NCBI RefSeq assembly: GCF_014201905.1
Contig: NZ_JACHFM010000002.1
Span: 1,240,001 to 1,304,000, forward strand
Source: Amaricoccus macauensis
Lineage (GTDB): Bacteria; Pseudomonadota; Alphaproteobacteria; Rhodobacterales; Rhodobacteraceae
DNA: 64,000 bases
Reading direction: 5' to 3'
Part shown: in pieces, positions 30,352-47,873 of the stretch
Numbering within the stretch: the first letter of the stretch is position 1
How the letters are laid out: each line of letters starts with the position of its first letter
Position numbers and translations under genes: made by a program
The notes under the pieces: generated by a model
Database searches by the model: none
Seen by the model: only the letters and a program-made list of their open reading frames with translations
Told to the model about the DNA's origin: nothing

Positions 30352-30364
30352 ACGGAGAGTCCCG

Positions 30365-31438: not shown

Positions 31439-32053
31439 ATGAGGCTCATCGGAATGGGCAGTCTGTCGCTGTTCGCCGTACTGGTGGCCGCAGTCGCGGT
31501 GCCGAGCAGTGCCATCTGCGCGGACGACGGCGGGTTCCCGACCGCCGATCAGGTCGGGGGTGAAGTCTTTCCCGACGGACTGCAACCCGGGGACACATTC
31601 CCGGGCGACGTCGTGCTTTACGACGCTGAGAGCAACGAGACGACATTCGGAAAGCTTGCGCAGGGAAAGCGCACCCTCCTGACGTTCTTCATCACCGCGG
31701 CTCCGGCATCGGTTGCGGAACTGAAGGCGATCGAGTCCACGGTCGGGGCGGCACCCGAACTGAACGTCATCTTCGCGAACTCGGACCTGGTGGGCAACGC
31801 GTTGTTCGGAGGTGCCCAGACGCAACTTGCCGAGACTGTCCGCACGGTCGGCATCGTCAAGACCGAGGGAGGGCTCACCACGCCGATGTATGTGGCGCCC
31901 AACAACGTCTACGCGCCCGATGGCCTGTCGAACCGCCTCGGCTTCCGCGGGCTGCCCACCAGCTATCTGATCTCTGCCGATGGGAAGGTTGAAAGGACGT
32001 TCGTGGGGACCCGCGAGTGGACGCCAGCCGATTTCGAGAAAGTCGAGGAATAA
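31439..32053 (+). CDS. TlpA/ResA-like periplasmic thioredoxin-fold protein lacking the CxxC pair
   Basis: 204 residues with a signal peptide (cleavage near SSAICA). The mature part follows the TlpA/SCO pattern: LQPGDTFPGDVVLYDAESNE, then TLLTFFITAAPASVAELKAIE, where the expected active-site WCxPC is replaced by TAAPAS, and a late cis-Pro region GLPTSYLISADGKVERTFVG. With no cysteine in the mature protein it cannot act as a thiol redox enzyme. A role as a scaffold, chaperone or copper-transfer partner for the downstream enzyme is inference. It ends 4 bases before the next start. Confidence 0.75.
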   Translation: MRLIGMGSLSLFAVLVAAVAVPSSAICADDGGFPTADQVGGEVFPDGLQPGDTFPGDVVLYDAESNETTFGKLAQGKRTLLTFFITAAPASVAELKAIESTVGAAPELNVIFANSDLVGNALFGGAQTQLAETVRTVGIVKTEGGLTTPMYVAPNNVYAPDGLSNRLGFRGLPTSYLISADGKVERTFVGTREWTPADFEKVEE

Positions 32054-32057
32054 ATCC

Positions 32058-33521
32058 ATGCTGACGAGACGGAACTACCTGCGTGGGGCGCTGGCGACCG
32101 GCGCAGGGCTGGCGCTCGGGTCCGGCGGGATCGGCGCCGCGCTGGCCGCCGTTCACGACGCCACCAGCGAGGGCACGCACGCGCTCTTCAAGCAGTTTCA
32201 TGGCAACGTCATCCTGTTGCCCGGAAAGTACTCAGGGACGGTCTCGGCGCTCGATCTCAGCGCGCCTGAGACGTTGGCCTGGTACAACTACGGCCGCGCC
32301 GGGATCGACATGCCGATTCCCCACCACATCGCCGCGATGCCGTCGGCCGACCCGTACAAGTCGTTCGATTTCTACCAGACGATGCAGCCGCCGGGGGCGC
32401 CCTACGTCAACGAGAACTCGCCCGAATGGCGCGACCGCGGCGACTTCAAGATGTTCAAGATGCGCTACGACGGGACGGGTACGCAGAACTCCATCAGCGT
32501 CGTCAGTGACATATCCGCTGCAACCGGCATGGCGCTTGGCGTTCACGTGTCGATCGGGGTCGGGGTCAACGCGGAAAAGTACGTGGCCTTTGCCGACGGG
32601 CAAAAGGACATGGTCCTGATCACGACGATCGACGACGATCCGAAGATCGTGAAGGCCTTCCGGGCTGACTACGATCCCAACGCCCGGGAGCTCAATATCC
32701 AGCACATCTTCCCCGATGCCTCGACAGGTCGTTTCGACTTCGAAGGGCGCAAGGGAATGAAGACGAGCCATGAGGCCATGCTCGGGGAAGAGCTGATGCC
32801 CGCCGATCCGACGGCGGTGTTCGTCGACGCGTTCACCTGGCACCCGACGTTGCCCCTCGGCGCGATCCTGATCCGCCGCCACGGCTGCTGCGTCATCGTC
32901 AACACCGAAACCTGGGAGCCGCTGGCGCTGCTCTCGACGGCGAAGGGCTCGCCCGATCACTTCGACCTCGTGCGTCAGTCGGGGACCACGTGGACCTATT
33001 CGATCCCGTCGGTGCTGACGCCACTCCACGAGGCGGGGTTCATCACCTCGGGCGAGTTCTTCCTCGCCTGCAACAACGTGCTGCAGAACAACGTCGCGGT
33101 CTATCGCTCCGAGGATCCGGACCCGATGAAATGGAAGAAGGAGGCCTTCGTCGAAGGCTTCGGGACGAAGTACCTTCCCCTGCACATGGGCAACGTCCCT
33201 GACTCACGGTGGGTGTTCTTCACGATCTGGGCGCGCAAGCCCAACAACGGCTTCATCTGCAAGGTCGATCCGAAGACGTGGGAGGTCGTTACCCGCTGGG
33301 ATACCGGGCCAGATCCGCACACCTGCGACTGCACGGTAGACGGCAAGTACATCACCACGGTCTATTCCGGGAACCAGTCCGGTCAGGCGGGTCTCGTCGT
33401 CATCGACGCGGACACCGACGAAATCGTGGCCCGCTTGCCGAGCCCGGCGGGGCACCATGACCATGTGGTCGTGCCCGAGAGCTGGGAGGGACTGAAGTCC
33501 TCCCGAAGCACATCGGTCTGA
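32058..33521 (+). CDS. Putative copper beta-propeller oxidoreductase, thiocyanate-dehydrogenase-like
   Basis: 487 residues. The start LTRRNYLRGALATG is a Tat signal, so export is probably in folded form. The rest reads as repeated beta-propeller blades (e.g. GTVSALDLSAPETL, GCCVIVNTETWEPLALL, GFICKVDPKTWEVVTRW, GLVVIDADTDEIVARL). Histidines H89/H90, H163, H324, H376, H421 and H466/H467/H469 fall in blade-loop contexts. Their spacing resembles the copper-ligand histidines I recall for thiocyanate dehydrogenase of Thioalkalivibrio paradoxus, but this is from memory. The expected reaction would be oxidation of thiocyanate to cyanate and sulfur. Copper-related genes follow and sox genes are nearby. 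Alternatives are another copper propeller enzyme, such as a nitrous-oxide-reductase-like protein without a CuA domain. Confidence 0.62.
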   Translation: MLTRRNYLRGALATGAGLALGSGGIGAALAAVHDATSEGTHALFKQFHGNVILLPGKYSGTVSALDLSAPETLAWYNYGRAGIDMPIPHHIAAMPSADPYKSFDFYQTMQPPGAPYVNENSPEWRDRGDFKMFKMRYDGTGTQNSISVVSDISAATGMALGVHVSIGVGVNAEKYVAFADGQKDMVLITTIDDDPKIVKAFRADYDPNARELNIQHIFPDASTGRFDFEGRKGMKTSHEAMLGEELMPADPTAVFVDAFTWHPTLPLGAILIRRHGCCVIVNTETWEPLALLSTAKGSPDHFDLVRQSGTTWTYSIPSVLTPLHEAGFITSGEFFLACNNVLQNNVAVYRSEDPDPMKWKKEAFVEGFGTKYLPLHMGNVPDSRWVFFTIWARKPNNGFICKVDPKTWEVVTRWDTGPDPHTCDCTVDGKYITTVYSGNQSGQAGLVVIDADTDEIVARLPSPAGHHDHVVVPESWEGLKSSRSTSV

Positions 33522-33596: not shown

Positions 33597-34061
33597 ATGG
33601 TTCAGGCGCGAGTGATTGCATCTTGCTTGCGGGCAGCTGTTGCCGTGGTCGCATTCGTCGCGGTTTCGGCGTCCGCCGTCGCCGCGCACGATTTCGACCC
33701 CGCCCATCCACCTGCCGGTCCCAACGGCGGTCTCGTGACGGCCGGCGACGCGGGTCATGTCGAATTCGGCATCGACGCGGGAAAGCTGATTGTCTGGCTC
33801 ACCGACCATGGCGGCGAACCCATTGCCTCCGGCAATCTGGTTGGGCACGCGTCATTCGTGACTGGCGCGGAAAGGCTCGATCTGGTTCTCGAACCGACCG
33901 GTGATCACATGATGCAGGCCGAGGACCCCCGCATTGCACCGGTCGAAGGTGCGCGCGTCTCGTTTCACACGGTCCTGTCGGATGGAATGCCTCTTGAGGC
34001 GCGCGTCATCATTCCGGGCGAGCATGCGGCCGCGGGCGAGCCTGCTGCCCACGGGCATTGA
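33597..34061 (+). CDS. Periplasmic His-rich protein, possible copper-binding accessory
   Basis: 154 residues with a signal peptide ending SASAVAA and then HDFDPAHPPAGPNGGLV. The body is a small predicted beta domain, and the tail HAAAGEPAAHGH is rich in His. It resembles small periplasmic proteins found beside CusB/CzcB-type fusion proteins. A metal-binding role is inferred from the histidines and from the RND genes downstream. No enzyme motif is visible. Confidence 0.6.
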   Translation: MVQARVIASCLRAAVAVVAFVAVSASAVAAHDFDPAHPPAGPNGGLVTAGDAGHVEFGIDAGKLIVWLTDHGGEPIASGNLVGHASFVTGAERLDLVLEPTGDHMMQAEDPRIAPVEGARVSFHTVLSDGMPLEARVIIPGEHAAAGEPAAHGH

Positions 34062-34062
34062 C

Positions 34063-34707
34063 GTGGGCAGGCTTCCCCATGACACCGGCCGCGGCATCCT
34101 GTCGGCCGCGCTGATCTGCATTGCCGGCACAGCGCACGCTGGCGCGGCCGAAATCGAGCGGCTCAAGAGCACACACGCCTGCGTGGAGTGCGATCTGTCG
34201 GGAGATGACCTGACGCAGGTCACCTTGATGCATGTCGATCTCTCCCGCGCCAATCTCTCGGGCGCACGGCTCGACGGGACCAGCATGATCAACTCGAATC
34301 TGAGCGGCGCGGATCTCACCGGCGCGAGTCTCGTGGGCACGACGCTGGGGGGTGTGATGCTGGCCGAGGCGGATCTGACCGGTGCCGATCTCTCGGGCGC
34401 GATCATGGTCATGGTGCATTCGCCGGGGGCCATCTTCGACGGCGCGAACCTGACGGGCGCGCAGGCGCCGACCTCGGATTTCGAGGGCGCCTCCTTCCGG
34501 GAGGCGCGCATGGCCGGGGCGGATCTCTATTCGTCCGCGCTGTTCTTCGCCGACCTGAGCGGCGCGGACCTGCGCGGCGCCGACCTGAACGCGTCGGACT
34601 TCGATCAGGCCGTGACGGAAGGCACGGTGACGGATCAGCAGACGGTCTGCCCTGATCGTGAACCCGGTCCCTGCTGGGCGGCGTCTGCCGGGGGAACCGA
34701 TCCATGA
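34063..34707 (+). CDS. Secreted pentapeptide-repeat protein
   Basis: About 214 residues from a GTG two bases after the previous stop; an upstream ATG at 34024 is also possible. A signal-like segment (GILSAALICIAGTAHAGA) is followed by a CxxC pair (HACVECDLSG). About 25 pentapeptide repeats of the A(D/N)LSGA type then build a right-handed quadrilateral beta-helix. A C-terminal pair of cysteines (TVCPDREPGPC) caps it. Its stop overlaps the next start (ATGA). The role is unknown; it may be a structural or copper-site assembly partner. Confidence 0.72.
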   Translation: MGRLPHDTGRGILSAALICIAGTAHAGAAEIERLKSTHACVECDLSGDDLTQVTLMHVDLSRANLSGARLDGTSMINSNLSGADLTGASLVGTTLGGVMLAEADLTGADLSGAIMVMVHSPGAIFDGANLTGAQAPTSDFEGASFREARMAGADLYSSALFFADLSGADLRGADLNASDFDQAVTEGTVTDQQTVCPDREPGPCWAASAGGTDP

Positions 34708-35609
34708 CGCGGCGCCCGCTCACGCGCGGCCGGCCTGCTGAGCTTTGCGCGGCCGCCCTTCTGGCCGGGATGGCGGCGCTCTGCGCTCCGGCGGCGGCGC
34801 GGGCGCATTCGGACGCCTCCTCGTTTGGCGGTGGCGCCGGCGTGCACGATCACGTCGTCGAGGGCCCCGCGTCAGTGCCCGGTTACCCCGCCCGCGTCAT
34901 GGTCGACCCCCGTCGCGTGGTGAACGTGACGATGCGCGTCAATGCAAGGATCACGGCGGTGCTGAGCGGCCCGCCGGGAACGCGGGTCAGCGCTGGTGAG
35001 CCGCTTGCGCGCTTCACGAGCGCCGAGCTCGACACATTGCAGACGACCTACATCGAAACCTATCGCGCCAGGGACGTCATGATGGCGATATCCATGACCG
35101 GCGAGGAGAAACTCATCGAAGGACGGATGAACCTGCGCTGGCGCGGGCTCTCCGAAGACGACGTTGTCACGATCGAGCGCACCCGGACACCGGTCGACGA
35201 GGTCACGATCTTCGCGCCGATCGACGGCTACATCACGCAAGTGAACATCGGCGGCGACCGCATCGTCAACGCGGGCACCAGGGCCGGGCTGTTCACCGCG
35301 AGCGGATCATCGGTGTTTCAGGTGGCCGATCCCGGGGCGCTGCTCATCGAGGCGAGCGTTCCGATCGGGATCGCCGAAGCTTTGCGACCGGGAGACACGC
35401 TTTCGGTTTCGCTGCCCGGCGCCGAGACTGCCGAGGCGGCCGCTGCGGTCGTCGACGCCGTCCTGCCGCTCGTCGACCCGGCGACACCCTGGGCGCGAAC
35501 GGTCCGGCTGACCCCGGGCGAGCAGATCGCCCGCGCTCTCCGGCCCGGCCAGATGGTGACGCTGCTGCCGCCCGATGCGGCCGAGCAGCACGTTGTCCGC
35601 GAGTACTGA
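34704..35609 (+). CDS. Membrane-fusion (adaptor) protein 1 of an RND pump
   Basis: 301 residues with a signal segment (AAALLAGMAALCAPAAARA) and a His-containing mature start (HSDASS...GVHDHVVEG). The HlyD/CusB adaptor pattern follows: NARITAVLSGPPGTRVSAGEPLARFTSAEL, a short alpha-hairpin (LDTLQTTYIETYRAR), then IFAPIDGYITQVNIGGDRIVNAGT and a beta-barrel. It lacks a long C-terminal membrane-proximal domain, unlike adaptor 2. It probably links the RND pump to the outer membrane in export of copper or another metal. Confidence 0.78.
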   Translation: MTRRPLTRGRPAELCAAALLAGMAALCAPAAARAHSDASSFGGGAGVHDHVVEGPASVPGYPARVMVDPRRVVNVTMRVNARITAVLSGPPGTRVSAGEPLARFTSAELDTLQTTYIETYRARDVMMAISMTGEEKLIEGRMNLRWRGLSEDDVVTIERTRTPVDEVTIFAPIDGYITQVNIGGDRIVNAGTRAGLFTASGSSVFQVADPGALLIEASVPIGIAEALRPGDTLSVSLPGAETAEAAAAVVDAVLPLVDPATPWARTVRLTPGEQIARALRPGQMVTLLPPDAAEQHVVREY

Positions 35610-35610
35610 G

Positions 35611-37134
35611 GTGATCAGGAACGCCCGGACGGTGAGGCGCTTCGGTATCAGCGGCATGCGTCTCGGCGCGGCGCTTGCCATCGCCGCCCTCGTCGTCAGT
35701 GCGGCCGCGGCCGATACAGCCACCGAGGAATCCGCGGCAGTGCAGCGCGCCGCGCGGGTGGAGGTTCCGGCCGCAAGCTCGCGCTTCATCCTGACGCGAC
35801 CGGTGGGGTCCGAGGCGCCACAACGCCGGATTCCGGCGATCGGGCGGGTCATCTCGGACCCGGTTGCGATCACCGACGTGAACGCGGCGATCAGCGGACA
35901 GGTGGCCGAAGTGTTCGTCCTGCCGGGCAGCATTGTCGCGAAGGGCGACCCGATTGCGTCCGTCACGAGCCCCGACTTCATCTTTACGCAGCGCAGCTAT
36001 CTGGGGCTTCTGGCGAACGAGGAACGGCTCGAGATCCTGCGGGGCGAGGGCAACCTTCCGAACTATCTCGAAGGCGCGCGTGACAACCTCCGCTGGTGGG
36101 GCATGACGGAAGGACAGATCGACGCGCTGATCGAGAGCGGCAGACCGGTCGAGCGGCTGAACCTCGTTGCCCCGGACGCCGGCATCGTCACGGAGGTTCT
36201 GGTACGGCCGGGGGACATGATCGATGCCGGCGACCGGACCATGCAGAACTTCATCGTGCTTGGCCGGGCGGTGGCGCGGATCCTGCGCGCCGATGCGCCC
36301 CTGACGCTCGAGGTGACCGCCTATGCAGCCGTGCCTCTCGGCGGCCCGGAGGCACGGCTGCAGCGCCCCCCGGAGCTTTCAGTCAACGCGGTGACGCCAC
36401 CGGCGGAGATGGCGGACCAGAATTTTGCCGCGCCCGATGGCGCGCGCCCCGGTCCAGCCGGATTGCCCGACGCAGGGACGGAATGGGGAGATCTCGGACA
36501 GGTGCCGGACTCGGGCGGATCGACCGGGGAAGTCGCTCCTGTCGATATGGTTCCGCTGATCGGCGGATCAGCTCCGGCCCCGCACGGCACCTCGGCTCGC
36601 AATGACCCACCCGCGGAGGCAGGAGCCCCCGCCGACACCGGAGCGGAGAGCGCCGCCCCACCGGCAGCGACGGACGAGGAAGCCGTGCCCGCGTCGGTCG
36701 AGGCGGAGCGGGACAAGGTTCACGTGCTGCTTCCCCGCGGCGGCCCGGACGGCGGTGCGATCGCCCTGCCCCTCGGGATCGTTGTGCCGGACATCGACCC
36801 GACGACCCAGCAGGCGCGGGCTCTCGTCAGCCTGAAAGGGCTCGGGCACGATTTCGCCCTGGGACAATCCTTGCCGGTCGAAATCGTCATCCAGCCGTCA
36901 AGCGGCGTCTGGCTTCCCGCCGAGGCGGTGCTCGGCCCCGACGTCGTCTATGTGACAACGGACGGCGGGTATGAGCGCCGGGAAATCGAGGTCGCCGACC
37001 GCACGTCGGGCTGGCTTCGCGCGGCGGAAGGCATCGAGCCCGGCGAGGAAGTCGTCCTCCGGGGAAAGACCCTGCTGGAAGGGGCGTATCGGCGCGGAAG
37101 CGCGGTGGCCGCGGGCGATCATCATCATCACTGA
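35611..37134 (+). CDS. Membrane-fusion (adaptor) protein 2 of an RND pump, with Pro/Ala linker and His tail
   Basis: About 507 residues from GTG 35611, one base after the previous stop; ATG 35656 would also give a signal peptide (MRLGAALAIAALVVSAAAA). The CusB-like core is split: PAIGRVISDPVAITDVNAAISGQVAEVF and NLVAPDAGIVTEVLVRPGDMIDAG, then an acidic Pro/Ala-rich insert at about 270-375, then a barrel and membrane-proximal region (WLPAEAVLGPDVVYVTTDGGYERREIEV). The tail is GDHHHH, a natural metal-binding end. It is the partner of the RND pump encoded next. A duplicated adaptor in one operon is unusual. Confidence 0.82.
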   Translation: MIRNARTVRRFGISGMRLGAALAIAALVVSAAAADTATEESAAVQRAARVEVPAASSRFILTRPVGSEAPQRRIPAIGRVISDPVAITDVNAAISGQVAEVFVLPGSIVAKGDPIASVTSPDFIFTQRSYLGLLANEERLEILRGEGNLPNYLEGARDNLRWWGMTEGQIDALIESGRPVERLNLVAPDAGIVTEVLVRPGDMIDAGDRTMQNFIVLGRAVARILRADAPLTLEVTAYAAVPLGGPEARLQRPPELSVNAVTPPAEMADQNFAAPDGARPGPAGLPDAGTEWGDLGQVPDSGGSTGEVAPVDMVPLIGGSAPAPHGTSARNDPPAEAGAPADTGAESAAPPAATDEEAVPASVEAERDKVHVLLPRGGPDGGAIALPLGIVVPDIDPTTQQARALVSLKGLGHDFALGQSLPVEIVIQPSSGVWLPAEAVLGPDVVYVTTDGGYERREIEVADRTSGWLRAAEGIEPGEEVVLRGKTLLEGAYRRGSAVAAGDHHHH

Positions 37135-37176: not shown

Positions 37177-40100
37177 GTGTTCGACTGGATCATCCGCGCA
37201 TCCCTGCGCCATCGCTGGACGGTCATCGCGATCTACATCGCTCTGGCGCTCGCGGCGGTCGCACTTGTGCCGCGCATGCCGCTCGACGTCTTTCCCGAGT
37301 TCGCCCCGCCGCAGATCCAGATCCAGACCGAGGCGCCCGGCTTTCCCTCCGAAGACGTGGAGACCCTGATCACGCGTCCCCTCGAGTCCGCGCTGCAGGG
37401 AATGCCGCACGTCGCCCGCATGCGGTCGTTCTCCACGGTCGGCCTGTCGCGGATCATCGTGGTCTTCGAGCCATCGATCGACGTCTATGACGCGCGGATG
37501 CTCGCGCAGGAGCGCCTGCAACGGGCCGCGCCGCTCCTGCCGGCCGGTGCGATGCCGGCGCAGATGATGCCGATGACGTCGGCGGTGAGCTGGCTGCAGA
37601 AGTTCGCGCTGATCGACTGGTCGCCCGAGCCCGATCCGCTGGCGTTGCGCAGCCTGGTGGACTGGGACTTCCGCAACGCCCTGCTTGCACAGCCCGGGGT
37701 TGCCGAGGTGGTCGCCACCGGCGGAGGGGTGAAACAGTATCAGGTGCTCGTCGATCCGATCCGGATGCGGACGGCGGACGTCTCCATGGACGACGTGATC
37801 ACCGCCGCGCGCGAAGCGAACCTGATCCTGCCGGGCGCGTTCATGCAGCCGTCCCGCGATCAGGAGTATTTCCTGCGGGTGGACGGGCGCGCGCGCAGCG
37901 TGACCGATATTGCGCAGACGCTGATCGTGCTGCGCAACGGCGTGCCGCTGACGCTGGGCGATGTCGCCGAGGTCACCGAAGGCCCGGAGATCAGGCGCGG
38001 CGACGGCCAGACGATCGACGGCAACGCCGTTGTCGGTACCGTGTCGAAGCTCTGGGGCGCGGACACGCTCGACACCTCGAACGCGGTTCAGGAGACGCTC
38101 GCACGCCTCGCGCAGAGCCTGCCCGACCACATCCAGATGATCCCTGATGTCTTCCGTCAGGCGACGTCGATCGAACGATCGGTCTCGAACCTCCAGCGCG
38201 CGCTGATTGAATCGATCGCCGTCGTGGCACTGGTGCTGCTGCTGCTTCTCGGTCACTGGCGACCGACGCTCATCAGCCTCATCGCAATTCCCACGTCGCT
38301 CACCGTGGGAGCGCTGATCCTGTGGGGGCTCGGGGTCGGCATCAATGCCCTGACCCTCGGCGGGTTGATCTTTGCGATCGGCGAGGTTGTCGACGACGCG
38401 GTCATCGACGTCGAGAACATCCTGCGACGCCAACGCGAAGCGCGGGCCACCGGTCACAAGATCAACGTGCTCGAGACGGTCTTTGAGGGTTCATCGGAGA
38501 TCCGCAACTCGGTCGTCTTCGCCACGGCGATCGTGGTGCTGGCCTTCGTCCCGATCTTCTTCTTGTCGGAGATCGAGGGGCGGCTCTTCGCGCCGATGGC
38601 AATTGCCTATATCGCGGCGGTCGCGGGCTCGCTGCTGGTCGCGCTCTCCCTCGTGCCGGTGCTCTGCTACTTCACCCTGCGCCGCGACGCCCGGGAGGAG
38701 CGCCTGAGCCGCACCGCCCTCTGGCTTCGCACGCGCTACCTCGATCTGCTTGCCCGGATCGTCGGCATGGGCCGGACCGCCCTTCTTGCCAGCATTGCCG
38801 GAACCCTGCTGGCGGTCCTGCTGCTTTCGACCGCGCACCGGGCGTTTCTTCCGCAGCAAGGCGAAGGCAACGTCGTCGTCGCGACGACGACCATGCCCGG
38901 AACATCGCTCGAAGAGACCATGCGTATCGGCAGGGAAGTGATCCGCATGGTGTCGGCGGTGCCGGGCGTGAAGAGCGTGGTCCAACGCGCGGGACGCTCG
39001 CGGCTCGACGAAGACGCGCAGCCGGTCAACTTCTCCGAGTTCGACGTGACGCTCGATCCGTCCCTGCATGATGCAAGCGCGGTTCTCGATGCCATTCGAA
39101 CCGAGCTGACCGCCCTGCCCGGGGTCGCGTCGAACGTGTCGCAGTTCATCACGCACCGGATGCAGGAGATCCTGTCAGGCATCAGCGCTCAGGTCGTCGT
39201 GCGGATCTTCGGCTCGGATCTGAACGAGCTGGAGCGGCTGCAGGGAGCGGTGCTGCGGTCAGTGTCCGGCATCCATGGCATCACCGACCTGCAGGCCGAG
39301 CCGCTGGTGGCGATCCCCGGCCATGACATCCGGGTCGATCGCTCTGCCGCGGCGCTCTACGGGTTCACGCCGACGGAGATCGTCCGACAGGTCGGCGCCG
39401 CGCTGAACGGCCTGCCGGTATCGCGGATCGTCGAGGGCGATCGCAGCTTTGACCTGATCGTCCGGGCGTCCGAGGCCGCACGGGCGGATCTCGACGCGAT
39501 CTCGCAGTTGCCGCTTCGCAGCGCCACGGGCGCGACCGTGCCCTTGAGCGCCGTCGCGAGCCTCGCGCCTGCGCAGGACCGTTACCAGATCGCGCACGAC
39601 GCAGGGCAGCGCCGCGCGGTGGTGCAGTGGAATGTGCCCGGCGGCGATCTCGTCGGTGTGGTCGCGGCGGCGCGCGGCGCCATGGCGGCGGTGGAGCTGC
39701 CGCCCGGGTACCGTCTCGATATCGGCGGCGACTACGTCGGTCAGCAGCGCGCGACGAAGAACCTCCTCTGGTCCGGGACGCTGAGCCTCCTCGGGATCCT
39801 GCTCCTGCTGTCACTCGCCTTCCGCTCGGGATGGATGGCCGCGCTGGTCGCGCTCAATGTGCCGTTCGCGCTGGTCGGAGGTGCGGTGGCCCTGCGCCTC
39901 GCCGGGGCGGGCCTCGACATCGCCTCCACGGTCGGGCTGATCGCGCTTGCCGGTGTCGCGGCGCGCAATGGCATCCTGCTGCTCACCCGATACGAAACCC
40001 TCGAAGCCGCGGGCGGGCGGGATACCGTCGGGATCGCCCTTCAGGGGGCGACCGATCGACTGCTGCCGATCCTGATGACAGGACTCACGACGGCGCTTGC

Positions 40101-40302
40101 CGTGGTGCCGCTGCTCCTCGGCGATCCGGTCGGAAAGGAGTATCAGCGCGCCGTCGCACTGGTGCTGTTCGGGGGAATGGTGAGCTCGCTCCTGCTCAAT
40201 CTGCTGCTGGTTCCGCCGCTCTATGTGCTGCTGAGGCAGCGTGTGGCCGGGCTGGCGCCGGACAATTCTTCGCAGACGGTGAGATCGACGGTCGGACCAT
40301 GA
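37177..40302 (+). CDS. Heavy-metal RND efflux pump, CusA/CzcA family
   Basis: 1041 residues from a GTG (VFDWIIRASLRHRWTVIAIY). The architecture is typical: TM1, a large periplasmic loop (DVFPEFAPPQIQIQTEAPGFPSEDVETLITRPLE), TM2-6 with the HME proton-relay motif GEVVDDAVIDVENILRR in TM4, a second loop, and TM7-12 ending NLLLVPPLYVLL. The AcrB-like drug class lacks this TM4 form. It likely exports copper or a related metal, or functions in copper supply to the periplasm. No outer-membrane factor gene (CusC/TolC type) is seen in the operon. Confidence 0.92.
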   Translation: MFDWIIRASLRHRWTVIAIYIALALAAVALVPRMPLDVFPEFAPPQIQIQTEAPGFPSEDVETLITRPLESALQGMPHVARMRSFSTVGLSRIIVVFEPSIDVYDARMLAQERLQRAAPLLPAGAMPAQMMPMTSAVSWLQKFALIDWSPEPDPLALRSLVDWDFRNALLAQPGVAEVVATGGGVKQYQVLVDPIRMRTADVSMDDVITAAREANLILPGAFMQPSRDQEYFLRVDGRARSVTDIAQTLIVLRNGVPLTLGDVAEVTEGPEIRRGDGQTIDGNAVVGTVSKLWGADTLDTSNAVQETLARLAQSLPDHIQMIPDVFRQATSIERSVSNLQRALIESIAVVALVLLLLLGHWRPTLISLIAIPTSLTVGALILWGLGVGINALTLGGLIFAIGEVVDDAVIDVENILRRQREARATGHKINVLETVFEGSSEIRNSVVFATAIVVLAFVPIFFLSEIEGRLFAPMAIAYIAAVAGSLLVALSLVPVLCYFTLRRDAREERLSRTALWLRTRYLDLLARIVGMGRTALLASIAGTLLAVLLLSTAHRAFLPQQGEGNVVVATTTMPGTSLEETMRIGREVIRMVSAVPGVKSVVQRAGRSRLDEDAQPVNFSEFDVTLDPSLHDASAVLDAIRTELTALPGVASNVSQFITHRMQEILSGISAQVVVRIFGSDLNELERLQGAVLRSVSGIHGITDLQAEPLVAIPGHDIRVDRSAAALYGFTPTEIVRQVGAALNGLPVSRIVEGDRSFDLIVRASEAARADLDAISQLPLRSATGATVPLSAVASLAPAQDRYQIAHDAGQRRAVVQWNVPGGDLVGVVAAARGAMAAVELPPGYRLDIGGDYVGQQRATKNLLWSGTLSLLGILLLLSLAFRSGWMAALVALNVPFALVGGAVALRLAGAGLDIASTVGLIALAGVAARNGILLLTRYETLEAAGGRDTVGIALQGATDRLLPILMTGLTTALAVVPLLLGDPVGKEYQRAVALVLFGGMVSSLLLNLLLVPPLYVLLRQRVAGLAPDNSSQTVRSTVGP

Positions 40303-40442: not shown

Positions 40443-41501
40443 TCACTCGGCGGGTGCCAGGCCTTCGATCAGCTGGCGGAGGCCAATCGCCGCTCCGAGG
40501 CAGATCGACGCCAACGTGACGGGTGCGCTGAATGCCAGGAGGGACATGGCGGAGATGCCCTGACCGATGCTGCATCCAGCCGCAACGACCGCGCCACACC
40601 CCATCATCGCCGCGCCCATGATCTGACGCCTCAGTTCTCGCGGGTCCTCGCAGGCCTCCCAGCGGAAGCGCCCCCTGCGAATGCTGCCGAGGAAGGCCCC
40701 GACAAGAACACCGGTGACCGAGCCTACACCGAAGCTCAGACTGCTCCCCGACGACGTCATCACGTAGAGCATCGTCTGGCCGAGCGGGGACGAGAAGGTG
40801 TGGGAGTCGACGGTGACCGCACCGAAGCTCTCGTAGGCGAGCCACTGCGTCCCGATCCAGCCCGACGCGATGGCCAAGCCGACCGAAATGCCGGCAACCG
40901 CGGACCCGGTCCCCATCCGCTGCTTCCGCCAGGGCCAGAGCGCGATCAGCACGAACGCGACGCCTGCCCCGACTCCCCAGACGACCGGCGAGAGCCCCGT
41001 CGCCCGGGCCGCGGCATGGGCGAGGCCGGGCGGCACGGCAGGCATCGGGTCGCGGGCGAAGAGAAGCAGCCGCAATTCGGCAAAAGGCCCCGAAAGCGTC
41101 GCGTAGGCCGCGAGACCCATGACAAGGACGATGACAAAGGAGCGCATATCCCCACCGCCGAGTCGCGCGAGCGCCCCGTAACCGCAGCCGCCCGCAATCG
41201 CCATGCCATACCCGAAGAGGAGACCACCGAACACGGAGCCCGAGAGGCTCCAGCCCTGACCGAGGTAGAAGGTGTCCTCCGCGCGAAGGAGCCCCGCGGA
41301 GATCGCGCCGAATGTCACGATGATCGCCGCGCCAATTGCGAGCAACCACATGCGGATGCGGACAGTGCTGCCGGAGTAGAGCAGGTCTTCGATCGCTCCG
41401 AGCGTACAGAAGCGTCCGAGCCGCGCGGCAAGACCAAGCACGATGCCGCCGAGCAGGCCGATCAACGCTGCCAGCGATGGGGCACCAACAACATCGACCA
41501 T
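40443..41501 (-). CDS. soxT: YeeE/YedE-type sulfur-compound transporter SoxT
   Basis: 352 residues with about nine to ten membrane segments. Repeated motifs typical of YeeE/YedE, such as LGLAARLGRFCTLGAIEDLL, GYGMAIAGGCGYGALARLGGG and AGCSIGQGISAMSLLAFSAP, carry the conserved Cys residues proposed to handle sulfane sulfur. ATG 41501 is chosen over a longer frame for its GGGAGG site. It lies 49 bp downstream of soxR, in the same direction, as in other sox clusters, and probably imports thiosulfate or sulfur. Confidence 0.85.
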   Translation of the reverse strand: MVDVVGAPSLAALIGLLGGIVLGLAARLGRFCTLGAIEDLLYSGSTVRIRMWLLAIGAAIIVTFGAISAGLLRAEDTFYLGQGWSLSGSVFGGLLFGYGMAIAGGCGYGALARLGGGDMRSFVIVLVMGLAAYATLSGPFAELRLLLFARDPMPAVPPGLAHAAARATGLSPVVWGVGAGVAFVLIALWPWRKQRMGTGSAVAGISVGLAIASGWIGTQWLAYESFGAVTVDSHTFSSPLGQTMLYVMTSSGSSLSFGVGSVTGVLVGAFLGSIRRGRFRWEACEDPRELRRQIMGAAMMGCGAVVAAGCSIGQGISAMSLLAFSAPVTLASICLGAAIGLRQLIEGLAPAE

Positions 41502-41550
41502 CGACCCCTCCCACGCGAGTTCCCCGCGCTGCTCCGTCGTCCCTGCGGGG

Positions 41551-41886
41551 TCAATCAGGGCGGCAGAATAGCTCGTAGACCACTTCGATGATCTGCCGCG
41601 GCCGGTCATCCGTCAAGCTGTAGTAGATCGTCTTGCCATCCCGGCGGGTCTTGACGAGACCCTCGAGCCGCAGGCGCGCGAGCTGCTGGCTGACCGCTGC
41701 CTGCCGGGCCGAGAGCAGCCGCTCGAGCTCGTTGACGGATTTCTCCCCGCTGGCGAGGTGGCAAAGTATCACCAGCCGCCCTTCGTGGCTGAGTGCCTTC
41801 AGAAAATCTGACGCCTTCTGCGCATTCTGGACGATTTTGTCGAGTTCCGCGTCAGTCAGCTTCTCGTCAAAAAGTGGCAGCGCCAT
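41551..41886 (-). CDS. soxR: ArsR-family sulfur-responsive repressor SoxR
   Basis: 111 residues from ATG 41886. Winged helix-turn-helix of the ArsR family: ALSHEGRLVILCHLASGEKSVNELERLLSARQAAVSQQLARLR and RRDGKTIYYSL. Cysteines at 42 and 108 match the pair used by SqrR/BigR persulfide sensors in which a tetrasulfide bridge forms in response to reactive sulfur. It is not the Fe-S SoxR of the superoxide response. It is expected to repress the sox genes, and candidate operators occur at 46139-46158 and 31226-31241. Confidence 0.9.
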   Translation of the reverse strand: MALPLFDEKLTDAELDKIVQNAQKASDFLKALSHEGRLVILCHLASGEKSVNELERLLSARQAAVSQQLARLRLEGLVKTRRDGKTIYYSLTDDRPRQIIEVVYELFCRPD

Positions 41887-41993
41887 CGTTATAAACCCCA
41901 GTGAGGGGACCCCCCTAATCGCCGCAATAGCTATCCATCCAGATATACAAAGAACTGCATGCATTCAAGTCGGGCACTTCCAATTGTCACATA

Positions 41994-42368: not shown

Positions 42369-42407
42369 GGGCTGCCTCCGATCGACAGCTGGCTTGACTA
42401 CATAATA

Positions 42408-42426
42408 TATGAATATAAGTATGAAT
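42408..42426. promoter_or_regulatory. Direct repeat TATGAAT x2 in the soxS-soxV gap
   Basis: TATGAAT at 42408-42414 and 42420-42426, spaced 12 bases start to start in a very A+T-rich 86-bp divergent promoter. It contains GAAT half-sites but no full ATTC-N8-GAAT palindrome. Could be a degenerate SoxR site or another regulator's. Confidence 0.35.
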
Positions 42427-42454
42427 CTCGCCAGAATGAAAGAGGGTAGCCGGG

Positions 42455-43195
42455 ATGTTCGATGTCAGCGCCGCAGGGGCGCTCTTTGCCGGCCTGCTCT
42501 CGTTCGTTTCCCCGTGCATTCTCCCGATGGTGCCGTTCTATCTGTCGTACCTGGCCGGCTCCGGCCTGCACGAGACGGCAAGCGGAACCCCCGTCGCGGC
42601 CAGTGTCAGGACGCGGGCAGTCCTGGGCTCCCTGTTCTTCGCCGCCGGAATCGTGACGGTGTTTGTCCTGCTCGGCGCGTCCGCGTCGATGCTCGGGCAG
42701 GCCGTGCGCCAGTGGTTCGGACTTCTGCGGTGGGTCGCGGCGGCGATCATCATCGTGATGGGACTCCACTTCCTCGGCGTTGTGCGGATTCCCCTCCTCT
42801 ATCGCCAGCTGCGGTCGGAGCCCGGCGACGTCCGCAAGCTTTCGCTCGGTGGCGCCTACGTGGTCGGCCTCGCATTCGCTTTCGGCTGGACGCCCTGCGT
42901 GGGACCGGTCCTCGCCGCGATCCTCTTCACGGCCGCCGGCACCGAGACGGCAGCACGCGGCGCGTTCCTGCTGCTGGTCTATGGCATCGGCATGACGCTC
43001 CCGTTCATCATCGCCGCGATGTTCGTCGGGCCGTTCCTCAGGTTCATGGCGCGGTTTCGACGCCACCTGGGCGCTGTCGAAAAGGTCATGGGCCTGTTCC
43101 TTGTCCTGTTCGGCGTCCTGATCGCGACGAACTCGCTCAATCGCATTGGTCAGTGGATGATCGACCATTTCCCGATCTTCATGCGGATCGGCTGA
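42455..43195 (+). CDS. soxV: CcdA/DsbD-like membrane thiol transporter SoxV
   Basis: 246 residues with six membrane segments. The two CcdA catalytic cysteines are C21 in VSPCILP and C148 in WTPCVGPVL. It moves electrons from cytoplasmic thioredoxin to the periplasmic SoxW. The start lies downstream of the A+T-rich divergent promoter. It is followed 14 bp later by soxW. Confidence 0.92.
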   Translation: MFDVSAAGALFAGLLSFVSPCILPMVPFYLSYLAGSGLHETASGTPVAASVRTRAVLGSLFFAAGIVTVFVLLGASASMLGQAVRQWFGLLRWVAAAIIIVMGLHFLGVVRIPLLYRQLRSEPGDVRKLSLGGAYVVGLAFAFGWTPCVGPVLAAILFTAAGTETAARGAFLLLVYGIGMTLPFIIAAMFVGPFLRFMARFRRHLGAVEKVMGLFLVLFGVLIATNSLNRIGQWMIDHFPIFMRIG

Positions 43196-43209
43196 TACCG
43201 GAGGCTGAA

Positions 43210-43797: not shown

Positions 43798-43910
43798 CGT
43801 CGCCCCGCGGGTAAATCGCATTCAATAACTAAAATATGTTGTTGTGTTGTGATTAGCTTCGAGGCTAACATGTGCGCAAGCGTGGCCACAGCGCGAGCAA
43901 GGGAGTTCAG

Positions 43911-44396
43911 ATGAAACCAAGCCTGGCAGTGATCGCCGTGACACTCCTTGCCGCGACGGGTGTTCGCGCCGAGGGTGACGCAGTTTCCCCCGAGGCAGTC
44001 GTCTTCGGCGAGCGCGGAAACGTCGAAGAGTCGCTTACGGGTCAGCCCGGTAACCCGGAGGCGGGTGCCGAGGTGATGACAACGAAGGCATCGGGAAACT
44101 GCATCGCCTGTCACCAGGTCACCGCCCTCGAGTCCGCCCAGTTTCTCGGGACTGTCGGCCCCTCGCTCGACGGGGTGGCCGACCGGTGGTCCGAGGCCGA
44201 ACTTCGCGGCATCGTGGCCAACGCCAAGATGGCATTTCCGGATTCGATGATGCCGGCCTTCTACAAGACGACGGGCTTCATCCGGCCCGGAAACGCCTTC
44301 ACGGGCAAAGCGCCGGATGGACCCCTGCCCCCGCTCCTCACGGGCCAGCAGATCGAGGATGTCGTCGCCTACCTCATGACCCTCCGCGCGCAATAA
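43911..44396 (+). CDS. soxX: Monoheme c-type cytochrome SoxX
   Basis: 161 residues with signal peptide (MKPSLAVIAVTLLAATGVRA). One heme site SGNCIACHQ (Cys 64 and 67, His 68) and Met ligand candidates at 113/114 (DSMMPAF). With SoxA it forms the SoxAX complex that couples sulfur compounds to SoxY. GGGAG precedes the ATG. The 113-bp gap after soxW is A+T-rich and contains a GCATTC half-site at 43819-43824. Confidence 0.92.
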   Translation: MKPSLAVIAVTLLAATGVRAEGDAVSPEAVVFGERGNVEESLTGQPGNPEAGAEVMTTKASGNCIACHQVTALESAQFLGTVGPSLDGVADRWSEAELRGIVANAKMAFPDSMMPAFYKTTGFIRPGNAFTGKAPDGPLPPLLTGQQIEDVVAYLMTLRAQ

Positions 44397-44433
44397 CCCG
44401 CGCGCAATGACGGACGACGCACGGAGAAACCCG

Positions 44434-44853
44434 ATGGATTACACCCGCAGACAGACCCTCCTGATGGCGCTCGGCGCCACGGCCGCTGCCTTGGTGCTGC
44501 CGCAGGCGGCTCGCGCGGCGATCGACGAGGCGGTTGCCGCCTTCACCGGTGGCGCCGAGATCGGCAGCGAAGGCATCACCCTGACCGCCCCCGAAATCGC
44601 CGAGAACGGCAACACCGTCCCGATCGAGGTCGACGCGCCCGGTGCGGTGTCGATCATCGTGCTGGCCGGCGGCAACCCGAGCCCGGGCGTCGTCACGTTC
44701 AATTTCGGCCCTCTGGCCGCGGAACAGCGGGCCTCGACCCGCATCCGTCTCGCCACCACGCAGGACGTCCACGCCATCGCGAAACTGGCCGACGGCCGGT
44801 TCGTGCAGACCAGCAGTGAAGTGAAGGTCACGATCGGCGGCTGCGGCGGCTGA
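44434..44853 (+). CDS. soxY: Sulfur carrier subunit SoxY
   Basis: 139 residues. A Tat-type start (YTRRQTLLMALGATAA) with signal cleavage near AARA, an immunoglobulin-like core and the swinging-arm C-terminus GGCGG with the carrier cysteine at 137. The sulfur intermediate is bound there during oxidation. ATG 44434 with GGAGA upstream is preferred to an in-frame ATG nine codons earlier. Confidence 0.95.
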   Translation: MDYTRRQTLLMALGATAAALVLPQAARAAIDEAVAAFTGGAEIGSEGITLTAPEIAENGNTVPIEVDAPGAVSIIVLAGGNPSPGVVTFNFGPLAAEQRASTRIRLATTQDVHAIAKLADGRFVQTSSEVKVTIGGCGG

Positions 44854-44872
44854 CGGAACAGGAGATAATACG

Positions 44873-45202
44873 ATGGCTGAAAACGTCACACCCCGCGTGC
44901 GCGTCCCCAAAACGGCCAAGGCCGGTGAGGCCGTCACGATCAAGAGCCTGATCAGTCACACGATGGAAAGCGGTCAGCGGCGCGACAAGGACGGCAACCT
45001 CGTCCCGCGTTCGATCATCAACCGCTTCACGGCTGATTTCAACGGCACCAACGTGATCGACGTCACGATCGAGCCGGCGGTTTCGACGAACCCCTACTTC
45101 GAGTTCCAGGCCACGGTGCCCGAGAGCGGCGCATTCGCCTTCACCTGGTACGACGACGACGGGTCGGTCTACAAAGAGAACGTCGAGATCACAGTGGCTT
45201 GA
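44873..45202 (+). CDS. soxZ: Sulfur carrier partner subunit SoxZ
   Basis: 109 residues without a signal peptide (MAENVTPRVRVPKTAKAGEAV), as expected because SoxZ is co-exported with SoxY by Tat. SoxZ motifs: IKSLISHTMESGQRRDKDG, NPYFEFQATVPESGAFAFTW. It forms the SoxYZ heterodimer. 19 bp after soxY. Confidence 0.95.
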   Translation: MAENVTPRVRVPKTAKAGEAVTIKSLISHTMESGQRRDKDGNLVPRSIINRFTADFNGTNVIDVTIEPAVSTNPYFEFQATVPESGAFAFTWYDDDGSVYKENVEITVA

Positions 45203-45227
45203 TCATCAACGCCAGGGAGGAAGAATA

Positions 45228-46085
45228 ATGCGGAGACAACTCCTCGGTGCAATCGCCATGGCGACCGTTTCGGGGCTTTCGCTTGCGGCGGCCGCCCTCG
45301 CGGCTGACGAAGACCCCAAGCTTGTGGTCAACGGTGAGATCGAAATGATCACCCGTGCTCCGGCACCGGAGCATGTGCCGAACTTCAGTGAAGTGACGTC
45401 GGGCTGGCTCTACCGCACTGAGGAGACGCAGGCATTGCAGATGGATGACTTCGAGAATCCAGGCATGCTGAACGTCGAGCAGGCAATTGCGGACTTCAAT
45501 GCCCCCGCCGGTCCGGAGGGACAGTCCTGTTCCACCTGCCACGAGTCTCCCGACGTCCTGCGCGGCGTCCGGGCCACTTACCCGAAGTGGGATGAGGAGC
45601 ACAAAGAGGTCCAGACCGTCGAGATGCAGGTCAACGAATGCGTCACCGAGCGCATGAAGGCGGAGCCCTGGGACTACGACGGCGCGCGCATGGTCAACAT
45701 GTCGGCGCTGATCGCGTCCGTCTCCCGCGGGATGCCCGTCAACGTCGCAATCGACGGACCCGTGGCGCCGACGTGGGAGAAGGGCAAGGAACTCTACTAC
45801 ACGCGTTTCGGGCAGCTCGAACTGTCCTGCGCCAACTGCCATGAAGACCACTATGGCGACATGATCCGCGCCGACCACCTGAGCCAGGGTCAGATCAACG
45901 GCTTCCCCGCCTACCGGCTGCAGAACGCCGGGCTGGTCTCGGTACACAACCGCTTCAAGGGCTGCGTCCGCGACACCCGCGCCGAGACTTTCGCCGTCGG
46001 CAGCCCCGAGTTCGTTGCGATCGAACTCTACCTTGCCAGCCGCGGGAACGGACTTTCGGTCGAAGGGCCTTCCGTCCGGCACTGA
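45228..46085 (+). CDS. soxA: Diheme c-type cytochrome SoxA
   Basis: 285 residues with signal peptide. Two heme sites are seen: CSTCH (101-105) and CANCH (201-205). The catalytic cysteine ligand is C246 in FKGCVRDTRAE, and C138 may be the ligand of the other heme. Thiosulfate is joined to SoxY at the active heme. Many SoxA proteins keep both hemes, as here. A terminator-like hairpin follows. Confidence 0.95.
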   Translation: MRRQLLGAIAMATVSGLSLAAAALAADEDPKLVVNGEIEMITRAPAPEHVPNFSEVTSGWLYRTEETQALQMDDFENPGMLNVEQAIADFNAPAGPEGQSCSTCHESPDVLRGVRATYPKWDEEHKEVQTVEMQVNECVTERMKAEPWDYDGARMVNMSALIASVSRGMPVNVAIDGPVAPTWEKGKELYYTRFGQLELSCANCHEDHYGDMIRADHLSQGQINGFPAYRLQNAGLVSVHNRFKGCVRDTRAETFAVGSPEFVAIELYLASRGNGLSVEGPSVRH

Positions 46086-46138: not shown

Positions 46139-46158
46139 GCATTCACAGATATGAATGC
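46139..46158. promoter_or_regulatory. SoxR/SqrR-type operator candidate before soxB
   Basis: GCATTC-N8-GAATGC, a perfect 6-bp palindrome with 8-base spacer, ending 24 bases before the soxB ATG at 46182. It contains ATTC-N8-GAAT, the form also found at 31226-31241. It would suit repression of a promoter or blocking of transcript start for soxBCD. Confidence 0.65.
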
Positions 46159-46181
46159 TTAAGTTTGAGGGCTGCCTCGCA

Positions 46182-47873
46182 ATGATATCGAGACGCCATT
46201 TTCTTCAGGCCGGGCTGGCGACATCCGCTCTCTACGGCGCGTCGAGCTTCGGAAGCTGGTCGCGTCTCGCCGCCCAGCAGCGCCTGACCCAGAGTGACCT
46301 GATCGGGACCTCCGGCCCCGGTACCCTCACGGTCATTCACGTCACGGATATCCACGCCCAGACCGTCCCGCTCTGGTTCCGCGAGCCGGAGGTCAACCTT
46401 GGCGTCGGCGACGCTGTTGGCAGGCCACCGCATCTGACGGGCGCAGCATTCCGCGCAGAGTTCGGAATCGAAAAAGGGTCCGCTCTCGACTATGCGCTGA
46501 CCTACGAGGACTTCGTCGCGCTCGGCCGCACCTATGGCCGGATGGGCGGGCTCGATCGCATCGCCACGGTGGTCAAGGCCATCCGCGCAGAGCGGCCCGA
46601 CGCGCTCCTCCTCGACGGCGGCGACACCTGGCAGGGCTCGCTCCCGGCGCTGAAGACCCAGGGCGCGGACATGGTGAAGCTCTTCCGCGCGCTCGGCACC
46701 AACGCGATGACCTCGCACTTCGAGTTCACGCTTGGCATCGACCGGGTGACGGAGATCGTCGAGAACGAGCTCGGCTTCCCGTTCCTGGCCGCGAACGCCT
46801 ACGATACGACCTGGGACGAACCGGCCTACCCGGCATTCGAGCTTTTCGAGCGCGCCGGCACCAAGGTCGCGGTCATCGGGCAGGCCTTCCCGTACCTGCC
46901 GATCGCCAATCCGAAGTGGCTCTTCCCCGACCTCAGCTTCGGGATCCGCAAGGACCGTCTGGCAAGCGTCGTCGACGAGGTGCGCGCCGGGGGCGCCGAG
47001 GTCGTCATCCTCCTGTCCCACAACGGCTTCGACGTGGACCGCAAGATCGCCGCGGACGTCCCCGGCATCGACGTGATCCTGACCGGCCACACCCATGACG
47101 CCATCCCCGAGCCGGTGCAGGTCGGACAGACCTTCCTGATCGCCTCCGGCTCGCACGGCAAGTTCGTGAGCCGCGTCGACATCGACGTTGACGGCGGGGC
47201 CATGAAGGGGCTGACCCACCGCCTCATCCCGATCTTCTCGGATGTGATCGCCCCCGATCCGGAGATGGCGGCACTGGTCGAGGAGACGCGTGCGCCCTTC
47301 AAGGCCGAGATGTCCGAAGTGCTCGGCAAGGCCGACGGGCTCCTCTATCGGCGCGGGAACTTCAATGGCACCTGGGACGATCTGATCTGCGATGCGCTTC
47401 TGACCGAGCGCGACGCCGAGATCGCGCTCTCTCCCGGTTTCCGCTGGGGCTCCAGCGTGATGCCGGGCGAGGATATCACCCGCGAGCACGTCTTCAACGC
47501 CACCGCGATGAGCTATCCGCAGGCCTATCGCACCGAAATGACCGGCGAGACCCTGAAGACGGTGCTCGAGGATGTCGCCGACAATCTCTTCAATCAGGAT
47601 CCGTACTACCAGCAGGGCGGGGACATGGTCCGCGTCGGCGGCATGGGCTACCGCATCGATATTCACGCAAAGATCGGTGCGCGGCTCAGCGACATGACGC
47701 TTCTCTCGACAGGTGAAGCGATCGATCCCACCCGCTCCTACGTCGTCGCCGGCTGGGCCAGCGTCAACGAAGGGACCGAGGGCCCGCCGATCTGGGACGT
47801 CGTCGAAGCACACATTCGAAACAAGGGCACGGTCAGCCCCTCGCCCAACACCAGCGTCGTTGTCGCTGGCTGA
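46182..47873 (+). CDS. soxB: Sulfate thiol esterase SoxB
   Basis: 563 residues. Tat signal ISRRHFLQAGLATSA, a calcineurin-like phosphoesterase domain with VTDIHAQTVPL, LLLDGGDTWQGS, LLSHNGFDVD and the GHTHDAI metal-binding motif, and a C-terminal 5'-nucleotidase domain with GGMGYRIDI. SoxB uses a dimanganese centre to release sulfate from the SoxY cysteine adduct. ATG 46182 is chosen over 46155 because it begins the Tat motif and the earlier ATG lies within the operator. Confidence 0.95.
   Translation: MISRRHFLQAGLATSALYGASSFGSWSRLAAQQRLTQSDLIGTSGPGTLTVIHVTDIHAQTVPLWFREPEVNLGVGDAVGRPPHLTGAAFRAEFGIEKGSALDYALTYEDFVALGRTYGRMGGLDRIATVVKAIRAERPDALLLDGGDTWQGSLPALKTQGADMVKLFRALGTNAMTSHFEFTLGIDRVTEIVENELGFPFLAANAYDTTWDEPAYPAFELFERAGTKVAVIGQAFPYLPIANPKWLFPDLSFGIRKDRLASVVDEVRAGGAEVVILLSHNGFDVDRKIAADVPGIDVILTGHTHDAIPEPVQVGQTFLIASGSHGKFVSRVDIDVDGGAMKGLTHRLIPIFSDVIAPDPEMAALVEETRAPFKAEMSEVLGKADGLLYRRGNFNGTWDDLICDALLTERDAEIALSPGFRWGSSVMPGEDITREHVFNATAMSYPQAYRTEMTGETLKTVLEDVADNLFNQDPYYQQGGDMVRVGGMGYRIDIHAKIGARLSDMTLLSTGEAIDPTRSYVVAGWASVNEGTEGPPIWDVVEAHIRNKGTVSPSPNTSVVVAG

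Follow-up and report, generated by a model that had tools for sequence, protein, structure and literature searches.

The locus analysed here raises the question of whether an alphaproteobacterium, Amaricoccus macauensis, encodes a thiocyanate dehydrogenase (TcDH) near the genes of the Sox sulfur-oxidation pathway, and whether the two could together turn thiocyanate (SCN-) into sulfate. The window, meaning the whole stretch of 64,000 nucleotides that was analysed (positions 1,240,001 to 1,304,000 of contig NZ_JACHFM010000002.1, assembly GCF_014201905.1), had received an initial annotation, made from the letters alone, which proposed a copper enzyme resembling TcDH. In substance that proposal was correct, and it can now be held with greater certainty than the letters by themselves allowed. 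We give a probability of about 0.86 to the reading that the gene encodes a periplasmic copper-dependent TcDH of the neutrophilic clade, with sulfur passing to sulfate via Sox and energy that may support autotrophy.

Identity of the protein

The tcdh frame (32058..33521, + strand) encodes 487 residues with a twin-arginine N-terminus (MLTRRNYLRG...), predicted to form a tri-copper seven-bladed propeller. It contains no internal stop, its neighbours are open frames, and it begins 4 bases after the end of a thioredoxin-like (Trx-like) gene. The initial annotation had described a beta-propeller protein of this length exported by the twin-arginine translocation (Tat) system; the frame, the RR start and every listed histidine proved real. 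The TcDH part of the span it gave (31439-33521) stands, while position 31439 is the start of the separate Trx-like gene of the same module. R4 and R5 were invariant in 20 of 20 aligned TcDH sequences, the motif being recognised by this alignment.

A phmmer search of the PDB retrieved nine distinct TcDH sequences over residues 40-486 (E 6e-83 to 1.6e-78), several of which carry just a Tat-signal name and were named TcDH in a Foldseek search of the PDB. The tenth and last match was YncE, at E 0.26. TcDH chains were the sole strong matches, and the suspected resemblance was confirmed, with E about 1e-80 to TcDH versus 0.26 for the next unrelated chain. No Pfam or NCBIfam family matched the protein at E <= 0.001.

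The predicted fold was in line with these results. An AlphaFold2 model, built from an alignment of 20 of the 26 full-length sequences, reached a confidence (pLDDT) of 75.7 and a pTM of 0.81. Its best 20 Foldseek matches in the PDB were all TcDH (query TM-score, TMq, 0.80-0.82; E 6e-41 to 2e-38; 34-36% identity), with chain titles that include the Thioalkalivibrio paradoxus and Pelomicrobium methylotrophicum enzymes and H482Q/H447Q mutants. Other propellers among the 50 matches listed, namely NirN, NirF, cytochrome cd1 and nitrous oxide reductase, reached TM 0.41-0.49 at 11-15% identity. No other copper propeller fitted better than the TcDH structures, so that the claim survived the structural test set for it in the initial annotation, and nitrous oxide reductase or another propeller is ruled out by this ranking (at most 0.49 vs 0.80-0.82). 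Three lines of evidence, namely sequence, active site and predicted fold, support placing the protein in the TcDH family.

Conservation of the active site

The legend of Fig. 4 in PMC6504805 lists 13 TcDH active-site residues, K103 H135 H136 Q156 H206 E288 D314 H381 H437 H482 H528 D529 R544. These numbers were shifted by 77 to read chain 6uwe, and the numbering was checked in that all 13 expected residue types were found there after the shift. In the alignment of the window protein to 6uwe (170 identities over 434 aligned positions), 13 of 13 were identical: K57 H89 H90 Q110 H163 E239 D257 H324 H376 H421 H467 D468 R483. All 26 full-length members, namely the window copy and 25 loci, have the same residues, a tally without the broken or cut copies L025 and L027. 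The copper-ligand histidines, put at six in the initial annotation, are part of this conserved set. The H324-H376-H421-H467 spacing measured 52, 45 and 46, as the initial annotation had given it (52, 45, about 46). From the C-terminal histidines that had been proposed, H467 stands as the ligand position; relatives have H, M, A or Q at 466, and H469 lies outside the set of 13.

In a homologue from Methylocella tundrae, 35% identical, Gln takes the place of the histidine at the H482 position, which shows that full conservation of the site is not automatic at such a distance. The existence of homologues with altered ligands such as this one, together with the 34-39% identity of the subfamily to the structurally known enzymes, would suit a copper protein of TcDH fold that has kept its site as a paralogue and acts on something else, for example another sulfur or pseudohalide compound. 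We consider this very unlikely, as the 13 residues are unchanged in every full-length member and the carriers include Paracoccus thiocyanatus, Thiohalobacter thiocyanaticus and metagenome-assembled genomes (MAGs) from SCN reactors.

A known neutrophilic clade

A contig scan of genomes for tcdh gave 27 loci besides the window's own copy. Its nearest named gene is that of Paracoccus thiocyanatus ATCC 700171 (91% identical), with Paracoccus sp. S-4012 also at 91% and Pseudaminobacter arsenicus at 88%. Identities were 83% for Afipia, Rhodoplanes and an SCN18 MAG, 80-81% for Thiohalobacter thiocyanaticus and a gamma-proteobacterial MAG, 76-79% for Thiobacillus, other beta-proteobacteria and one 'Rhizobium' MAG (70% for the cut copy L027), 71% for a Nitrospira MAG and 57% in two MAGs. 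Eight of the 27 loci, from 7 genomes, lie in records named scnpilot or SCN18, and names of this type denote thiocyanate reactor genomes (PMC8061750). P. thiocyanatus is listed as growing with thiocyanate as electron donor (PMC5328954).

The window TcDH belongs to the known "neutrophilic" clade, in which P. thiocyanatus, P. arsenicus, Afipia, Rhodoplanes, Thiohalobacter and Thiobacillus share with it 76-91% identity, the same 13 residues and, where the contig reaches, the same order of Trx-like, TcDH, 154-residue and pentapeptide genes. It is not new in kind: a TcDH related to the strain THI201 protein was already reported in the alphaproteobacterium Afipia, with Sox genes in that genome (PMC8061750). 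In the tree, the window protein sat beside P. thiocyanatus with weak support (92/53), and long branches separated the clade from 6uwe, 8q9x and Methylocella; this tree was rooted at its midpoint, and its Methylocella row is long. It left out L025 and L027, the locus entry of the own copy (L028) and residues 1-85 of the Methylocella protein. The Thioalkalivibrio paradoxus (5F75, EC 1.8.2.7) and Pelomicrobium methylotrophicum (8Q9X) enzymes have the same fold and all 13 residues, as read on 6uwe, but differ by the 34-39% identity, by this deep split and, for Thioalkalivibrio, by neighbours such as copCD, fccAB and ABC transporters (PMC5328954).

Among 195 relatives scanned, six matched tcdh, full length in the own genome only; the other five gave weak TcDH-like matches confined to residues 373-474 (E 1e-4 to 7e-4), and none of 10 congeners matched. 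On plasmids, the only TcDH match was the homologue from Methylocella tundrae (35% identity), which occurs in 2 records. The genes after this methanotroph protein, which is annotated as hypothetical on plasmid NZ_LR536451.1 (L036:9521-11365), encode an ABC permease and an ATPase, an arrangement shared with Thioalkalivibrio. The tcdh of Paracoccus sp. S-4012 (L025:10001-11456) matches in three pieces, of which the piece to its own stop spans 319 residues, and the cusA match there spans just 464 of 1041 residues; either decay or an assembly error would explain these broken genes. In another locus (L019), the tcdh of the 'Rhizobium' MAG is nearly identical to the T. thioparus copy (tree branch 0.002), and this contig is probably misbinned.

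Oxidation or hydrolysis of thiocyanate

Oxidation of SCN- to cyanate and elemental sulfur (S0) is the most likely activity of the window TcDH, judging by comparison with the family. It is favoured by the active site, by the thiocyanate-using carriers and by an enrichment of Thiohalobacter FOKN1, whose proteome was rich in a TcDH orthologue and which built up cyanate (PMC6934394). Several points weigh against it. The purified FOKN1 TcDH did not oxidise SCN- in vitro (PMC6934394); this protein is presumably of the neutrophilic clade, strain HRh1 being the one compared here. The clade also stands on long branches from the Thioalkalivibrio and Pelomicrobium structures, at 34-39% identity, and the own genome has no cyanase match while 17 of the 26 carrier genomes searched have one. 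In addition, the THI201 enzyme is reportedly a hydrolase making carbonyl sulfide (COS).

Cyanase (cynS, PF02560) gave no match in the own genome, which is 99.03% complete, in a search whose control matched in 1 of 14 genomes. None was found in the closest group of four (own genome, P. thiocyanatus, Paracoccus S-4012, Pseudaminobacter arsenicus). Since many carriers are MAGs, gene absences there are weak. Thioalkalivibrio thiocyanate oxidisers are also without cyanase activity (PMC6504805), so that its absence does not refute TcDH.

The alternative to oxidation is that the window protein is a single-subunit thiocyanate hydrolase turning SCN- into COS and NH3, in which case no electrons would be taken and cyanase would be unneeded, in line with its absence from the closest group. 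The inactivity of FOKN1 TcDH in vitro also fits, and the Afipia protein, a close relative of the one from THI201, initially bore the annotation thiocyanate hydrolase (PMC8061750). Hydrolysis nevertheless appears unlikely to us, given that all 13 residues of the oxidising site are kept, that cyanate accumulates in FOKN1 cultures and that most of the carriers searched do have cyanase.

A cobalt thiocyanate hydrolase (ScnABC) acts on the same substrate in Thiobacillus thioparus and is of a different protein family and metal from TcDH. Its NHase_alpha domain, which does not separate thiocyanate hydrolase from nitrile hydratase, had no match in the own genome, in a search where no control matched; in a repeat over 26 genomes, T. 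thioparus matched at E 1.2e-69. On this lack of a match, an NHase-type hydrolase was rejected as the genome's route. The domain was found in 5 of the 26 carriers (genomes of L018, L019, L021, L024 and L026: T. thioparus and its near relatives, and Pseudaminobacter arsenicus), and some of these may therefore be able to begin thiocyanate breakdown in two ways. The P. thiocyanatus genome had neither an NHase_alpha nor a cyanase match, so that, of the first-step candidates tested, TcDH alone is left for it. The cyanase and NHase_alpha tallies omit L014 and L027, whose MAGs were counted via L008 and L017.

Candidate partner proteins of the module

The first module gene (31439..32053, +) encodes a predicted periplasmic thioredoxin/redoxin-like protein of 204 residues (Redoxin E 6e-4, below the Pfam cut-off), with weak thioredoxin matches in the PDB (best E 0.0012). 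All 28 loci (27 and the own) have a match directly before tcdh, at a gap of 1-59 bp in 27 of them; in L016 the match (55-258) sits at the contig start. A role as sulfur acceptor was proposed for this protein in PMC6504805, which itself noted missing cysteines. We found no cysteine beyond position 30 in 28 of 28 rows, four of them fragments, and none in the own copy outside the presumed signal peptide. This argues against a covalent acceptor role, and sulfur transfer via a cysteine of this protein is thus unlikely.

After tcdh comes a gene for a putatively exported, histidine-rich protein of 154 residues (33597..34061, +), a candidate copper chaperone with a weakly CrdA/CopC-like predicted fold and no Pfam or NCBIfam match. 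It was found in 23 of 28 loci; among the other five, the contigs of L019, L023 and L027 break off inside tcdh or no more than about 100 bases from it, and L020 and L022 do not have the gene despite 10 kb of DNA. A30, H31, G44, G45, H54, E56, G62, W67, D70 and P100 are identical in all 23 proteins, and H71 in 21. The model, from an alignment of 20 of the 23 members, had a pLDDT of 85.9. Its best Foldseek matches were to CrdA (E 1.2e-3, TMq 0.45-0.47), with none at E <= 0.001, and CopC/PcoC recurred further down, interspersed with unrelated Ig/FN3 folds. With the family profile, the matches were designed Pizza propellers, along a stretch of 12 residues, and one Ika8 chain (E 0.35), all taken as chance. 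We take Ala30-His31, at a likely cleavage site, to resemble the histidine brace of CopC. As a lead and not a finding, the modelled fold suggests that this protein is a better candidate for copper handling than the pump discussed below.

The next gene encodes an exported pentapeptide-repeat protein (34063..34707, +; Pentapeptide E 1.4e-32), present in 21 of 28 loci. Its longest open reading frame runs from 33934, and a likely GTG start at 34063 was inferred by reading. In the P. thiocyanatus module, a metallo-beta-lactamase-fold gene (L001:12594-13619) and a Cu/Zn superoxide dismutase gene (19128-19670) were also observed.

The RND genes and the question of copper

Two resistance-nodulation-division (RND) membrane-fusion proteins, CusB/HlyD-like (34704..35609, HlyD_D23 E 3.7e-24; 35575..37134, E 6.1e-22; both +), precede a CusA/CzcA-like RND pump (37177..40302, +; ACR_tran E 7.4e-231; TIGR00914 693.7 bits, below the cut-off of 701.45). 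Such a set of two adaptors and a pump lies near tcdh in a number of loci. The best PDB matches of the window pump were near equal, ZneA at 433.5 bits and CusA at 431.7. The copper triad of CusA is M573/M623/M672 (PMC8092243), and the window pump has A569/F619/E664 at these positions. Among the 13 locus pumps at E <= 1e-40, 11, at 54-71% identity, have A/F/E (L025 partial), and the remaining two (L020, L022; 28-30% identity) have M/M/M; weaker or partial matches in L006, L009 and L011 were left out. CzrA and NczA have E at the M672 position (PMC3637150). In PMC6504805, the RND genes are taken as a copper transport system; the A/F/E residues leave that reading unsupported by the residue test, though not disproved. 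The claim of the initial annotation that copper-handling genes follow tcdh is thus unsupported for the pump, and for the 154-residue neighbour comes down to a weak CrdA/CopC-like match.

Sox neighbourhood, possible acquisition and regulation

Beyond the pump, the - strand holds a YeeE/TsuA-like sulfur transporter (40443..41609; Sulf_transp E 1.7e-53; TsuA model 76.4 bits, below the cut-off of 400) and an ArsR-type regulator (41551..41964; HTH_5 E 1.7e-9), SoxR-like by position and colinear in a congener. On the + strand follow a SoxV-like protein (42455..43195; DsbD_TM E 4.1e-18) and proteins exceeding NCBIfam equivalog cut-offs: SoxX (43872..44396; TIGR04485, 92.9 bits, cut-off 61), SoxY (44407..44853; TIGR04488, 140.6, cut-off 125), SoxZ (44873..45202; TIGR04490, 102.2, cut-off 76), SoxA (45228..46085; TIGR04484, 234.4, cut-off 110), SoxB (46155..47873; TIGR04486, 797.3, cut-off 550) and SoxC (47900..49165; TIGR04555, 622.8, cut-off 420). 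The SoxD candidate, a c-type cytochrome (49077..49949, true start probably later), has Pfam cytochrome c matches only (Cytochrom_C E 2.7e-7; no NCBIfam match) and is colinear in a congener. The cluster, which had been called complete, is therefore firm for SoxX, Y, Z, A, B and C. Matches to SoxB suggest a Rhodobacteraceae-like placement of the organism, whose genome gave no SSU rRNA match in a search with a control that matched in 9 genomes. The distance of 7 kb that had been given applies to the yeeE-side block, which begins 6.9 kb downstream of tcdh, soxX itself being 10.4 kb downstream. Near the sox cluster, genes at 53875-59444 match the SrfB and Virul_Fac families, by family name only.

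Linkage to sox genes recurs: soxX, A, Y or Z matches occur in 16 of the 27 loci. In 11 Thiobacillus-type loci, soxX and soxA follow the pentapeptide gene, at 26-33% identity; the T. thioparus pair, the sole pair tested, passes the SoxX and SoxA equivalog cut-offs, and its 21-kb locus had no soxY, soxZ or soxB match. The P. thiocyanatus module is flanked by yeeE-soxR on one side and by a soxX/soxA pair on the other, whereas that of the window lies beside yeeE, outside the sox block. The other 11 loci had no soxX, A, Y or Z match, four of them (L006, L019, L023, L027) with little downstream DNA. This linkage was not seen in the available parts of PMC6504805 or PMC8061750, and no literature search was aimed at it.

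Both flanks have counterparts in congeners without tcdh. A fec-type gene block (27540-30571) matches one congener (G028) at 80% DNA identity, after which the match stops and 9 kb of other DNA lie beyond; the sox block, from 40466 to 49897, is matched piecewise and in order by another (G032), whose contig has 1.6 kb on the module side. The TcDH and RND genes sit between the two blocks, and this position, with the patchy distribution, suits insertion. It suits horizontal acquisition of the module, no mobile element having been identified.

A sigma-54 promoter in the window was considered and rejected, as base shuffling equalled or exceeded the score of its best site (7/12) 183 times out of 200. 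The scan covered 24 upstream regions, four loci being passed over because their upstream DNA was too short; 15 of the regions had a sigma-54 type site at 10-11/12, equalled in <=8 of 200 shuffles, and 9 had none. In L002, L003, L004, L012 and the Thiobacillus loci, these -24/-12 type sites precede the assigned start of the Trx-like gene by about 105-190 bp. Loci of Afipia, Rhodoplanes and Thiobacillus had such a site; none was found in those of P. thiocyanatus, P. arsenicus and Thiohalobacter, nor in the window. A GAF kinase and a sigma-54 regulator lie upstream in the T. thioparus and Thiohalobacter loci.

The tcdh of the window might be an intact but silent acquired gene, in an organism that does not use thiocyanate. 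None of the congeners carry it, the Paracoccus S-4012 copy is broken, and the window has neither the upstream site nor, unlike T. thioparus and Thiohalobacter, a sigma-54 activator, none being found among its 36 proteins scanned with Pfam. Silence seems improbable, however, for a gene with no internal stop, open frames around it and 13 intact active-site residues, in a genome with Sox genes and two RuBisCO-family matches.

Proposed pathway

In the pathway that we favour, TcDH would oxidise SCN- in the periplasm to cyanate and S0, its copper content and reaction being those known from the family, and would pass electrons to an acceptor. The sulfur would be handed to the neighbouring Sox system, possibly via SoxXA/SoxYZ, and oxidised to sulfate, yielding energy that may support autotrophy through the RuBisCO-family genes. 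The 154-residue protein may load copper into TcDH, and cyanate may leave the cell or hydrolyse slowly, because no cyanase was found. The thiocyanate-to-sulfate module of the initial annotation is thus present as TcDH and Sox genes, with a sulfur hand-over that we infer, and has no cyanase match on its nitrogen side.

A broader proposal, which we put forward tentatively and regard as rather doubtful, is that a transferable thiocyanate-to-sulfane module docks repeatedly on Sox loci. TcDH sulfur would reach SoxYZ via the linked SoxXA, and copper would come from the 154-residue protein as a CopC/CrdA-like histidine-brace chaperone, not from the 'Cus' genes. The A/F/E pump would be a separate RND subtype moving a cargo other than copper(I), for example some other metal or a toxic product of the reaction, and would do so in cyanase-free organisms too.

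Significance

Thiocyanate is a toxic waste of mining and coking. The neutrophilic TcDH clade occurs in many thiocyanate-reactor genomes, its chemistry being unproven since a purified enzyme was inactive (PMC6934394). What the present analysis adds to known TcDH is the Sox linkage, the missing cyanase, the pump result and the CrdA/CopC-like lead. As the Paracoccus-type group has no cyanase match, cyanate may meet another fate there or may not be the true product, and the pump residues weigh against the published copper-transporter reading of the RND genes (PMC6504805). The conserved module, for its part, suggests why activity might be lost in the isolated enzyme, which may depend on the Trx-like and CrdA/CopC-like proteins as partners.

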